In this document: one piece after another, positions 17,169-20,795 of the stretch
Layout: each line of letters begins with the position of its first letter
How positions within the stretch are numbered: position 1 is the stretch's first letter
Assembly: GCF_900101825.1 (NCBI RefSeq)
Contig: NZ_FNAG01000002.1
Span: forward strand, 186,001 to 250,000
DNA: 64,000 nt
Reading direction: 5' to 3'
Origin: Aquimonas voraii
GTDB taxonomy: Bacteria > Pseudomonadota > Gammaproteobacteria > Xanthomonadales > Xanthomonadaceae
Notes under the pieces: generated by a model
Told to the model about the DNA's origin: nothing
What the model saw: the letters and a program-made list of their open reading frames with translations, nothing else
Database searches by the model: none
Program-made: the position numbers and the translations under genes

Positions 17169-18497
17169 TCACTCCAGCGTGTGCAGCTTCTTCGCTGCCG
17201 CTGCGACGCCTTCCAGCACGCGCTCCGCCAGCTCTCCAGGAAAGCGCTCGGGCAGCTGCCGGGCCACCTGTTCGACCACCACCGGCGCCCGTTCCGCCAA
17301 GTCCTCACGCAGCGCACGCGCGCGCTCGATTGGAAAGCCGCAGCGATGCGCGGTGGCGTCCCAGTGGCGGGGCAGGATGCGCTTCCAAAGGGAGTGACGA
17401 TGCGTGCTGTGTGCTGCCATCGCCATGCGTGCGCGCTCGGGGGCAAGCTGATTGCGGCCCTTGCCCAGCACCGCATGCGCCGACAGCACGTCGTACAGCG
17501 GCGCCAGCCGATAGCGGCCGCCGGCCTCGATGTGCAGGCTGAAGTTCTTGGCGTGGCCATCGGTGGCGCAGAGCAGCCAGAACACCAACTGCGCGCGGAA
17601 GAAGGTCTCGCGGTCAGCCTCGGCCTGTGCCGAGCCCAGCAGGAGCCGCATGCCCTGCATGATGCCGGGCCCACCGTCGGCCTTGTACTTGAAGGCCGGC
17701 GGTGTGCCGGTGGCCTGGCAGAAGTCTTCCTGCGGCAGGCGCAGCCAATGTGTCCTGGCCTTGGCCAGGCGCCGATCAAAGCGCTGCACTACCAGTGCCT
17801 TCTGCTCTTCGAACTGGGCGATGCGACATTCCGCCACCGGCAGGCCGAAGGCGTGCAGAAGCTGCGCGCACAGCCACTCGTTCTCGACCGAGGTGGCGAA
17901 GTCGGCCTGCATATTGCCGACCCTGCCCAGCGGCAGCTTGAAGATGTGCGTGCTCGGCGTGGTGCCCAGCGGGCGCTGCCAGCCGCCAGCGTGCCAGAGC
18001 AGGGCGGTCTTCTCCTGCGCGCCGGCCAGCGAGATGCGCAGGTCGACCTGGTCGTCGCGGCCAAGCCCCGAGAGTGCCGGTGTGCGCCGGAGCAGGGCGG
18101 CGACATCGGCCTCGCGCATCGGCTCGCCCTCGATGCGATCAATCGGCGCGGGCGCCACCTCGTCCGGCAGCAGCTGCACCGCGCCCACGCAGTCGCGACC
18201 CACTTCCGCCAGCAGATCAAATGCGCGCTGGCTGGCGGCACCGAAGCGCGACTGCAGGCGCTGGCGAATGGCCGGGCTGTCCGGCAGCAGGTTGTCGAAG
18301 AAGGCCTCCACCACCGGGCCCGTGTAGGGCGCGGCGCGCAAGGGCAGAGACAGCGACAGCGGACGTGCGGCCTTGGACTGCAGCCAGCTCGCCTCGTACC
18401 CGAAGGCATGCACGCCACCTGCGCCGATGCGCCAGCGGCCAACGAACTCGCCGTTCATCCACACCGCCAGCTGGCGAGGGCCGCGTGCGCGCCTCAC
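17169..18497 (-). CDS. hipA: HipA-family kinase toxin
   Basis: A 442-residue protein, close to the 440 of E. coli HipA, a serine kinase that phosphorylates glutamyl-tRNA synthetase and causes growth arrest. The N-terminal domain (WMNGEFVGRW) and nucleotide loop (DDQVDLRISLAGAQEKTALLW) are present; the catalytic Asp and Asn sit in LLCATDGHAKNFSLH and the metal Asp in LAPLYDVLSAH. It starts at a GTG one base after the hipB stop, so translation is coupled. All key residues are visible. The target in this organism is not shown. Confidence 0.92.
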   Translation of the reverse strand: MRRARGPRQLAVWMNGEFVGRWRIGAGGVHAFGYEASWLQSKAARPLSLSLPLRAAPYTGPVVEAFFDNLLPDSPAIRQRLQSRFGAASQRAFDLLAEVGRDCVGAVQLLPDEVAPAPIDRIEGEPMREADVAALLRRTPALSGLGRDDQVDLRISLAGAQEKTALLWHAGGWQRPLGTTPSTHIFKLPLGRVGNMQADFATSVENEWLCAQLLHAFGLPVAECRIAQFEEQKALVVQRFDRRLAKARTHWLRLPQEDFCQATGTPPAFKYKADGGPGIMQGMRLLLGSAQAEADRETFFRAQLVFWLLCATDGHAKNFSLHIEAGGRYRLAPLYDVLSAHAVLGKGRNQLAPERARMAMAAHSTHRHSLWKRILPRHWDATAHRCGFPIERARALREDLAERAPVVVEQVARQLPERFPGELAERVLEGVAAAAKKLHTLE

Positions 18498-18498
18498 C

Positions 18499-18750
18499 TC
18501 ACCACTCCGGCGACTGCGGATCGTCCGCCGGCGCTTCGTTCGGCTCCAGCACCAGGCGCAGCTGCAGGGCGGAGAGCAGCTTGTACAGGCTGGCGATGCT
18601 GCTGCCGCTGGGGTCGGTTTCGAGGCTGGAGACCGTCTTCTGCAACAGCCCCACCTTGCTGCCCGCCTCGCGCTGGGTCAGTTCAGCGCTCAGCCGCCGG
18701 CCGCGCAGCACGGCGGCCAGCTGTTGGGGGGTGTCGGCATGGAGGCGCAT
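18499..18750 (-). CDS. hipB: HipB-like antitoxin, XRE family
   Basis: An 83-residue protein with one Cro/XRE helix-turn-helix (LAAVLRGRRLSAELTQREAGSKVGLLQKTVSSLETDPSGSSIASL) and a proline-rich tail. Family partners bind hipA, hold it inactive, and repress the operon. It lies immediately upstream of hipA, with one base between them. Just before its start codon are three repeated operator-like sites and a near-consensus promoter, in line with autorepression. Confidence 0.92.
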   Translation of the reverse strand: MRLHADTPQQLAAVLRGRRLSAELTQREAGSKVGLLQKTVSSLETDPSGSSIASLYKLLSALQLRLVLEPNEAPADDPQSPEW

Positions 18751-18754
18751 GGCG

Positions 18755-18826
18755 TATACCCTGTGGGGGATTTCGACGCTTTATACCCTCTGGGGGTTAG
18801 AGGTTCAATACACCCTGTGGGGTATT
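18755..18826 (-). promoter_or_regulatory. hipBA promoter with three operator-like repeats
   Basis: On the minus strand a near-consensus sigma70 promoter is visible: TTGAAC at 18808-18803, 17 bases, then TATAAA at 18785-18780. Three sites of the form AAxxCCCCxxAGGGTxTA occupy 18807-18826, 18782-18799 and 18755-18772, each imperfectly symmetric (ATACCCC..GGGTGTAT in the first). Their common ACCC positions are exactly 27 bases apart. The first overlaps -35, the second fills the spacer to -10, the third lies at the expected transcript start. HipB binding is the obvious inference. Confidence 0.78.
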
Positions 18827-18851
18827 GCGCCGAAGCCCGCCGCATCGGCCC

Positions 18852-19082
18852 CCGAAGCGCGCATAGGGTGGGCCCCGGCCCACCATGAGCCACACGCTCG
18901 CCAAGGTCCTCGCCAACGCCCTGCCACCTCATCGCAAGCACCCGCGCGAGGTCAGCAGGCAAGGACACACCTGCACCCCCGACACCTCGCACCGCTGCGC
19001 TGGCAGCCCGCTCGCGGTATCGAGATCCAGACGTGCCACCAGCAGCCTCGGCGGGGCCTGCGGTTGCCAGCAGGTCACTCGC
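18852..19082 (-). pseudogene. R2 repeat joined to hydrolase 3'-end remnant, copy a
   Basis: From the R2 palindrome (TAGGGTGGGCCCCGGCCCACC from 18864) this block runs to the vapC stop. Read on the minus strand from 19072 it encodes CWQPQAPPRLLVARLDLD then TASGLPAQRCEVSGV, which matches the last 33 residues of the hydrolase at 20970-21767 without gaps (21 of 33 identical). The hydrolase stop TAG is replaced by CAG. R2 to stop is 108 bases here and in the other two copies. It is a gene remnant, not a gene. Confidence 0.75.
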
Positions 19083-19502
19083 TCAATCCGCCACCTCCGA
19101 AGCCCAGTCCTCCACGCTCAATCCGCTGACACGCGCAAACTCGCGCGTGTTGTGCGTCACCAGCGTGGCCGCATCGGCGAGGGCGTGGCAGGCGATCCAA
19201 AGATCGTTCGCGCCGATCGGCGTGCCCTGATCCTTCAGTTGAGTCGCCTGCTCGGCATAGTGCCGGCAGATGGCCGGGCCGCTCGGATACCGCACAGGCA
19301 CCTGGCGGCTGAGCTGGTCGAGCCGTCGCAATACCTCGGCCTTGCGCGTACTGCGCTCCGCGCCCTTCAGCAATTCCGCCCAAGTGATGAAGGACATGCA
19401 GATCTCGTCGGACTCCGGCAGCGCATCAATTCGTTGCGCCACGCTGGGCGGCCGGTTCTTGATCAGGTAGATCAGGATGTTGGTGTCGAGCAGATAGATC
19501 AC
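19083..19502 (-). CDS. vapC: PIN-domain ribonuclease toxin VapC
   Basis: A 139-residue PIN-domain toxin. Acidic residues of the active site are present: MIYLLDTNILIYLIKN (first Asp), SFITWAELLKGAE (Glu), GANDLWIACHALADAATLVTHNTREF (Asp, with the usual TxN). VapC toxins cleave tRNA or rRNA; the target here is unknown. It overlaps vapB by four bases. Its stop codon lies exactly at the edge of the displaced hydrolase remnant, suggesting the insertion junction. Confidence 0.92.
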   Translation of the reverse strand: MIYLLDTNILIYLIKNRPPSVAQRIDALPESDEICMSFITWAELLKGAERSTRKAEVLRRLDQLSRQVPVRYPSGPAICRHYAEQATQLKDQGTPIGANDLWIACHALADAATLVTHNTREFARVSGLSVEDWASEVAD

Positions 19503-19771
19503 AGCGGCTCGCGTTCCTGCACGTCGGGCTGGCTGGCGCGCTCCGCCTCCAGGGCCGCAACGAATTCCGCGTCCGCGTCTGCCAGCGCCTCAAGCGCTTC
19601 GAGCAGGGCAGCACCACGCCGCGCACGCAGCGGATGGATGATCAGATCACCCGCCTCGTTGCGGGTGATGGTGACGCGGTCGGTATCCAGCTTGAACTCG
19701 GCCGGAATACGCACGGCCTGGCTGTTGCCGTTGTTGAACACACGAGAGGTCAGGGTCGCCATGGCTGGCAC
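19499..19771 (-). CDS. vapB: VapB antitoxin, AbrB-like
   Basis: A 90-residue antitoxin of the swapped-hairpin AbrB type: SRVFNNGNSQAVRIPAEF is the DNA-binding half, and the acidic C-terminal half (ALADADAEFVAALEAERASQPD) would mask VapC. The track start at 19771 is GTG (MPAMATL...); an ATG at 19762 (MATLTSRV) is equally likely or better. It overlaps vapC by four bases. Upstream of it, at about 19775-19800, lies an A/T-richer segment with inverted ACT..AGT elements that may hold its promoter and operator. Confidence 0.9.
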   Translation of the reverse strand: MPAMATLTSRVFNNGNSQAVRIPAEFKLDTDRVTITRNEAGDLIIHPLRARRGAALLEALEALADADAEFVAALEAERASQPDVQEREPL

Positions 19772-19869: not shown

Positions 19870-20078
19870 ACCGAGCACCTATAGGGTGCGCCCCGGCCCA
19901 CCATGAGCGGCACGCCCGCCCCGGTCTTCGCCAAGGCCCCCGCCCTCCCATCGCAATAACCCGCGCAAGGCCAAGGGCAAGAGCACCCCTACACCCTCGA
20001 CCCTCTGGACCGCTGCACCAGAACCCCAGTCGCTGCACTTGAATCCAGATCGGCCATCAGCAGATCAGGCAGTGCTCG
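19870..20078 (-). pseudogene. R2 repeat joined to hydrolase 3'-end remnant, copy b
   Basis: Same organisation as copy a. The palindrome begins TAGGGTGCGCCCCGGCCCACC at 19882. On the minus strand the sequence from about 20075 reads LPDLLMADLDSSAATG then VLVQRSRGSRV and a stop TAG at 19991-19989, matching the hydrolase C-terminus in frame (VPGLLVADLDLHAATG...), about 16 of 29 identical. The distance from the palindrome to the stop is again 108 bases. Both vapBC and the next module are therefore flanked by copies of the same segment. Confidence 0.72.
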
Positions 20079-20083
20079 CCTGC

Positions 20084-20111
20084 TTGCCCGGCATCCCTCC
20101 AGGACTAGAAT
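20084..20111 (+). promoter_or_regulatory. putative promoter of the antitoxin/PIN module
   Basis: TTGCCC at 20084-20089 and TAGAAT at 20106-20111 are separated by 16 bases, 29 bases before the antitoxin ATG. This is a plausible sigma70 promoter; it lies just past the end of hydrolase remnant b. Confidence 0.45.
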
Positions 20112-20140
20112 CGACCCACCCCGAACTTCGGCCCTGCGTC

Positions 20141-20383
20141 ATGACCACCGTACAGATCACCCTGCCAGACCAGCTTGCCGAAGAAGCCGCGAGCGCCGGT
20201 CTGCTGCGCGCCGAGCGTATCGAAGCGTTGCTGCGTGAGCAGCTGCGAGTAGAACGAGTGGCGCAACTGCGGGCCGCGAGGCATTCGCTGGCCGCGGACC
20301 CCGTGCCTGCGCTGACCGCAGCCGAGATTGACAGCGAGATCACCGCCTATCGCGATGCGCAGCGACGTGCGGCTGGTACTTGA
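20141..20383 (+). CDS. antitoxin of a PIN-type module
   Basis: An 80-residue protein starting MTTVQITLPDQLAEEAASAG, a ribbon-helix-helix style beginning, then an acidic helical tail (LTAAEIDSEITAYRDAQRRA). Such tails commonly wrap the toxin. It overlaps the following PIN reading frame by 29 bases, as in co-translated toxin-antitoxin pairs. Family assignment is from its opening pattern and position; no structural test is possible here. Confidence 0.78.
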   Translation: MTTVQITLPDQLAEEAASAGLLRAERIEALLREQLRVERVAQLRAARHSLAADPVPALTAAEIDSEITAYRDAQRRAAGT

Positions 20384-20795
20384 TACCAACACGGCCGTCT
20401 CGGGCCTGCTCTGGCCCGGAGGACCGCCCTGACACTTGATCGACGCCGCGCTCGATGGGCGTATCGAACTCTTCAGCAGCACCGCCCTGCTGGCCGAGCT
20501 TCAGGGCGTGCTGGACCGGCCGAAGTTCGCCCGAACACTGGCCAAGCGCGGAACGTCTGCGCGTACGCTGTTCAATGGCTATGCCGCGCTGGTGACGCAT
20601 GTGTCGCCTGCAACGGTGCGGCGCGTCGTCAAGCGCGACCCTGATGACGATCACGTCCTAGCCTGTGCGCTTGCGGCCAATGCCCGCCTGATCGTCTCGG
20701 GCGATCTCGATTTGCTTGATCTCGGTGAACACGAAGGCGTGCCGATCTTCACGGCGGCCCAGGCCCTGACTTGGATCGAGCAAGCGCTGAACTGA
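20355..20795 (+). pseudogene. PIN-family toxin with in-frame TGA
   Basis: From the ATG at 20355 the frame encodes a COG1569-like PIN toxin (LVLDTNTAVSGLLWPGG) but meets TGA at 20430-20432, then continues in the same frame: HLIDAALDGRIELFSSTALLAE, KRDPDDDHVLACALAANARL, VSGDLDLLDLGEHEGVPI. The domain continues across the stop without shift, so one substitution (for example CGA to TGA) would explain it. The N-terminal catalytic Asp lies before the stop; the others after it. A TTG at 20436 could restart translation but would lack that Asp. The toxin is therefore probably inactive. Confidence 0.8.

Follow-up and report, generated by a model that had tools for sequence, protein, structure and literature searches.

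Which interaction could hold the operators of a hipBA toxin-antitoxin promoter at one exact distance from each other, and is such a spacing particular to one promoter or common to its relatives? The question is raised by a 64,000-nucleotide stretch of the Aquimonas voraii genome, hereafter the window, in which an initial annotation described three sites with a CCCCxxAGGGT core, exactly 27 bases apart, in front of the hipB and hipA genes. We examined these sites, the promoter and the two genes in the window and compared them with hipA loci from other bacteria. Publications are cited by PMC number from excerpts of their text.

Three palindromes at the hipBA promoter

The coordinates of the genes, the promoter elements and the sites are given in Table 1. 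The identity of both genes agrees with the initial annotation, by profile matches as well as by matches to E. coli chains and to 2wiu. HipA is 44.6% identical to E. coli HipA over 435 aligned positions, scores above the cut-off for both PF13657 (N-terminal) and PF07804 (kinase), and its residues 9-427 align to the E. coli HipA chains with an E-value of 1e-103. Equivalents of Ser150, Asp309 and Asp332, the role of which in E. coli HipA is described in excerpts of PMC3376134, are all three present. The toxin is a single protein, not the split HipS and HipT of the HipBST type. HipB is just above the cut-off for HTH_3 and matches the HipB of 2wiu (E 3.2e-07); its score against the NCBIfam hipB equivalog is 43.2, under the cut-off of 79. 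The C-terminal Trp of HipB, called universally conserved in excerpts of PMC3376134, is found in 88 of the 93 HipBs compared below, the window's included. The five HipBs that end otherwise (L089-L093) have fitted promoter periods that are still 27 or 28 bp, with a weak score for L089.

Table 1. Coordinates in the window of the hipBA genes, the promoter-like hexamers and the operator sites
Feature	Position	Strand	Description	Basis
hipA, kinase toxin	17169-18497	-	442 aa; one base from hipB	profile and structure-chain matches
hipB, antitoxin/repressor	18499-18750	-	83 aa; HTH_3; recognition helix LLQKTVSSLE; C-terminal Trp	
operator site 3, AATCCCCCACAGGGTATA	18755-18772	-	adjoins the predicted start, over the leader	core search, repeat finder, genome pattern scan
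-10-like hexamer TATAAA	18780-18785	-	its TATA is the last four bases of site 2	by-eye call
operator site 2, TAACCCCCAGAGGGTATA	18782-18799	-	fills the -35/-10 spacer and gives the TATA of the -10	core search, repeat finder, genome pattern scan
-35-like hexamer TTGAAC	18803-18808	-	in the 9-bp gap of sites 1 and 2, directly after site 1	by-eye call
operator site 1, AATACCCCACAGGGTGTA	18809-18826	-	upstream of the -35 hexamer	core search, repeat finder, genome pattern scan

An exact search of the window with the core CCCCNNAGGGT gave just three matches, at 18758, 18785 and 18812 of the minus strand, hence in two steps of 27 bp as first described. With one mismatch allowed, the 16 matches do not exceed chance (14.3 expected), and Markov-1 model windows (n = 100) gave 0.19 exact core matches per strand, none of them in a triplet of equal spacing. 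A repeat finder returned the same repeat family at 18755, 18782 and 18809. The core proved to be cut off-centre from a longer palindrome of 18 bp, with the consensus TATACCC-N4-GGGTATA, and all six half-sites share an A at place 2 and a CCC run over places 5-7. The three palindromes at 27-bp steps are thereby confirmed as real. In the 4.4-Mb genome, a loose 18-mer pattern is matched exactly at the three sites of the hipBA promoter and nowhere else. When up to one mismatch is allowed, 20 places are found (the three exact ones and 17 with one mismatch, two of these overlapping) vs 21 in the reversed control, so that the genome search suggested by the initial annotation gave no excess of further sites and no regulon is indicated.

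The two hexamers lie where they had been located, 17 bases apart, with a predicted start at 18773 and the hipB ATG at 18750. This promoter is a by-eye call, because a stricter sigma-70 scan of 18500-19100 found none; the scan demands T as the last -10 base, which TATAAA does not have. The sites had been described as covering the -35, the spacer with the -10, and the transcript start. This stands for the spacer, the -10 and the leader, most of which is covered by site 3 from its beginning beside the predicted start, but the -35 hexamer sits in the gap between sites 1 and 2. Taken together, the array is best read as a probable autorepression array for HipB or HipBA.

A step of 27 bp represents, at 10.5 bp per turn, 2.57 helical turns or about 206 degrees, close to the 2.6 turns first stated. 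On B-DNA arithmetic it is plausible that adjacent HipB dimers would sit on alternating faces, the real shape being set by bending and contacts. The E. coli operator is reported to be bent by 70 degrees by HipB or HipBA (excerpts of PMC3920265 and PMC3376134), hence the real geometry may depart from the arithmetic.

The E. coli K-12 hipBA promoter, with four operators, resembles that of the window in its HipB-HipA pair, its several sites and its 18-bp palindromes in the same register. The half-site consensus, TATACCC in the window vs TATCCCC in the E. coli operator oligo (excerpt of PMC3376134), differs by one base, A for C, and three regular sites at 27/27 bp stand against E. coli distances of 28/39/28 bp. 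The core had been said to differ from the TATCC-N8-GGATA operators of E. coli HipB, and none of the six half-sites reads TATCC. Most of the relatives' operators also differ from that motif, which we take as a species trait and not as defining for the HipBA family.

Spacing and operator letters among relatives

The comparison covered 93 hipA loci, namely the window, 80 loci from a contig collection picked on HipA similarity alone (70 Pseudomonadota, 6 Verrucomicrobiota, 2 Myxococcota and 2 Spirochaetota), E. coli K-12 and 11 relatives. A HipB-like HTH gene lies directly upstream of hipA in all 93. The best direct-repeat distance in the 205 bases before the HTH gene, a measure free of fitted sites, was 27 bp in 47 promoters, 54 bp in 20, 26 bp in 12 and 52 bp in 2. 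At 27 bp, a z of at least 3 was reached by 55 of the 93 promoters vs none of the 93 hipA coding stretches and one of 89 stretches further upstream; the mean z was 2.95 in the promoters vs 0.44 in the further-upstream control, which thus shows a slight rise too.

A fit of three palindromes, with the period free over 18-39 bp and one shuffle per promoter as control, gave 27 bp in 72 promoters, 26 bp in 15, 28 bp in 2 and other periods in 4. No shuffle scored above 31, a value surpassed by 85 of the 93 promoters, and 84 of these had a period of 26 or 27 bp; among the 87 fits with either period, three were no better than shuffles. The shuffled promoters displayed no comparable peak, their commonest period occurring in 9 of 93. 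A site scan of 84 promoters showed that many arrays extend past three sites in the same step, some of them to 4-11 sites, with distances of 27 bp (170 times), 26 bp (27 times), 28 bp (5 times) and 26 other distances. This histogram was rejected as independent evidence: about 166 of its distances are built in, the sites having been fitted at periods 26, 27 and 28 only. The free tests of the spacing are the direct-repeat distances and the palindrome fit at 18-39 bp. Hence the 27-bp spacing, the wide occurrence of which the initial annotation had left out, is common to most of the relatives examined and not peculiar to the window promoter.

Two kinds of array were seen besides. At about 480-780 of locus L113, a hipBA promoter carries an unbroken run of eleven predicted HipB operators at 27-bp steps. 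Some relatives that share the E. coli helix also show 28 bp; in L168, L169 and L082, with an E. coli-type helix, 28-bp distances are combined with 37-39-bp ones, which would correspond to the insertion of roughly one helical turn between two pairs of sites.

The position of the promoter relative to the sites was compared as well. Among nine relatives compared singly, L002, L003, L037 and L083 have the -10 register of the window and L008 nearly so. In L004 and L028 the promoters are different or weak, whereas L113 and L015 have phase 16 with weaker hexamers. Over the 69 promoters fitted at 27 bp, the start of a -10-like box falls on the downstream edge of a site (phase 14-17) in 34 promoters and on the mirror edge (phase 0-2) in 6. 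Among the 33 of them with a promoter score of at least 9, 20 have it at the downstream edge and 3 at the mirror edge. The two edges make the fair comparison, since sites ending in TA favour -10-like matches in themselves.

The letters of the sites, in contrast to their spacing, change widely. Half-sites over the loci read TATACCC, TATCC, TATCG, TACAG, TACAA, TACTA, TAGAC, TTCAA, TATTC and others, some of which may represent a gap palindrome, as the fit at times picks the wrong phase between site and gap. The relation of these letters to HipB was followed in 54 representatives of 83 out of 101 loci, the 18 with a fit score below 33, E. coli included, having been dropped (with E. coli restored, these are the 84 promoters of the site scan). 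The best predictor of operator similarity, out of 57 seven-residue windows of HipB, was LLQKTVS in the recognition helix (r 0.438), and the helix columns kept a partial r of 0.306 given the rest of HipB, a value reached in none of 2000 permutations of the 54 representatives. Moreover, CCC half-sites occur with 10 of 10 Lys-Thr helices, the type found in the window, vs 2 of 73 other helices. This tracking of operator by helix is the best evidence on the reader of the sites and points to HipB, as initially proposed. The table of helices and operators also amounts to a natural code of operator specificity for an XRE-type repressor. It appears that the spacing, more than the site letters, is what evolution keeps.

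More distant HipA proteins were reached with two further queries, the second query HipA being 35% identical to that of the window and the third about 20-27% over partial alignments. Loci were assigned to the resulting three HipA groups by the query with the best score, so that the groups are not proven clades. In the distant-group search, 10 of 69 loci, with no HipA or no upstream HTH, were dropped, as were 9 with an already counted promoter. After thinning to below 60% identity, the group of the window peaked at 27 bp (36 representatives, mean z 3.02; shuffled maximum 0.42), the second group at 50 bp (7 representatives, mean z 2.53; shuffled maximum 1.06) and the third at 41 bp (18 representatives, mean z 1.59; shuffled maximum 0.68). 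Single loci reached a z of at least 2.5 at the distance of their own group in 23 of 36, 3 of 7 and 6 of 18 cases respectively. The evidence for the peaks of the two distant groups, near 50 and 41 bp, is thus thinner. Under strict per-locus labels, 80 of the 99 loci grouped with the window carry 27, 26 or 28, but the group's own spacing is found in only 5 of 10 loci of the 50-bp group and 6 of 30 of the 41-bp group. Placed on a HipA tree (FastTree, with long-branch warnings; 3 of 142 alignment rows, shorter than 330 residues, dropped), the spacing labels require 37 changes vs a shuffled mean of 65.6, a number as low being reached in none of 200 shuffles. For the labels 50 and 41 by themselves, clustering on this tree is not clear, with numbers as low in 40 and 34 of 500 shuffles respectively.

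What may fix the distance between operators

We consider it rather probable that the palindromes are operators of HipB or HipBA and that neighbouring complexes touch each other, likely via HipA, which would fix the distance at 27 bp. The first part, operators on which HipB dimers would shut the hipBA promoter, is strongly suggested by the comparison. HipB dimers, alone or as HipA-HipB2-HipA, would occupy the spacer together with the -10 and the leader. Contact between adjacent HipBA complexes would plausibly set the spacing: touching most likely through their HipA subunits, they would hold the sites 27 bp apart and the array would fill cooperatively, a full array keeping HipA inactive and stopping transcription. 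The site letters could then change with the HipB recognition helix while the spacing hardly changes. HipA bridging is our first choice for the contact because HipA dimerisation has been reported in E. coli promoter complexes; in excerpts of PMC7029023, the HipA7 substitution G22S is thought to hinder it, and excerpts of PMC6581861 refer to HipA-HipA dimerisation in DNA binding. Residues altered in HipA7 were tried as a marker of the 27-bp group and rejected: Asp291 is kept in 99 of 99 HipAs there but also in 10 of 10 of the 50-bp group, and Gly22 in 60 of 99 of the 27-bp group. This failure to single out the group counts against the HipA contact. The irregular E. coli distances (28/39/28 bp), the low share of distant-group loci with their group's spacing and the slight rise at 27 bp in the further-upstream control also weigh against the preferred reading.

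The main rival to HipA bridging, in our view unlikely, retains the operator array and lets HipB alone set the spacing, by direct contact or by a bending of the DNA that favours the next dimer, with HipA as a bystander. It would agree with the cooperative binding of HipB to the four E. coli operators described in excerpts of PMC3920265, and with two hipB genes that have no detectable hipA in about 3.2 kb and keep a spacing of 27 or 28 bp. L200 retains a pair of operators at 27 bp, and L179 by eye a triplet at 28 and 27 bp, for which the scan ranks 29 first. The loss of hipA at these two loci may be recent, which makes them uninformative on the role of HipA, though their spacing does not help the HipA reading. 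Arg occupies the fifth helix position in 12 of the 13 promoters fitted at 26 bp in the helix comparison, and the 26-bp fits pair with a palindrome one bp shorter at a constant 9-bp gap, a pairing that is built into the fit. However, the spacing varies by HipA group though all groups have an XRE-type HipB, and HipA is reported to dimerise on the E. coli promoter (PMC7029023, PMC6581861).

That the spacing is merely inherited, through recent duplication of a 27-bp unit or because promoter geometry dictates the arrays, is improbable. Some arrays do have like gaps (identity 1.0 in 5 of 83 and 0.78 in one more), and the eleven units of L113 would suit a duplication. But the mean identity is 0.44 in the gaps vs 0.76 in the outer bases of the sites, a value that the fit tends to raise, and in the window only 2 of 9 gap positions are identical; with gaps that differ more than the sites' outer bases, the majority of arrays lack the look of a fresh duplication. 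Moreover, the letters vary over the loci while the spacing stays, and arrays of 4 to 11 sites hold more than a promoter needs. Another regulator of hipBA as reader of the sites is very hard to reconcile with letters that follow the HipB recognition helix in the 54 representatives and with an exact 18-mer pattern found nowhere else in the genome.

HipA bridging, the preferred cause, can be extended to the distant groups. Each HipA group would keep its own distance (27, about 41 or about 50 bp) through toxin-toxin bridging while the site letters drift with the HipB helix, so that the spacing would be a readable signature of how the complexes pack. We hold this extension tentatively, as possible but a little short of probable, its standing having been lowered slightly because neither 50 nor 41 as a label shows clear clustering by itself. 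Persistence mutations of E. coli are located in HipA. A conserved distance between changing sites in several phyla would argue, on comparative grounds, for selection on a higher-order DNA complex. It offers a simple experimental handle, namely to shift one site by a few bases and see whether repression or persistence changes.

Related arrays and the neighbourhood of hipBA

Operator arrays on hipBA promoters were known before. Those of E. coli are described in excerpts of PMC3376134 and PMC3920265. The Caulobacter crescentus hipBA1 and hipBA2 promoters are reported to carry identical inverted repeats at intervals that fit the E. coli complexes (excerpts of PMC7029023) and three operator sites (excerpts of PMC8545095); by this description they are like the array of the window. 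In Legionella pneumophila, HipBST has three evenly spaced operators bound by HipB, as predicted in the window, but a split toxin, a different motif and 53-bp gaps between operators (excerpts of PMC10653801). A precedent for constrained spacing is YefM-YoeB, in which an altered distance of two palindromes disrupts cooperative binding (excerpts of PMC3920265), although this is a different toxin-antitoxin family with a centre distance of 12 bp. A family-wide rule for hipBA spacing was not found in the titles, beginnings of abstracts and passages of the open literature searched, a body of text to which subscription journals mostly do not belong. What merits a specialist's attention is that the spacing is conserved while the letters vary.

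The immediate upstream neighbour of hipBA, likewise on the minus strand, is a vapBC-like toxin-antitoxin pair (19083-19771). Beyond it, a further PIN-domain protein (20436-20795, plus strand; PF13470 above cut-off) is preceded by a small ORF (20039-20383) with no match above cut-off. Between these toxin-antitoxin genes, a partly palindromic 27-base repeat, TAGGGTGNGCCCCGGCCCACCATGAGC, is interspersed at 18864, 19882 and 20863; it has 107 genome matches at up to three mismatches (59 and 48 by strand) vs none for the reversed control.
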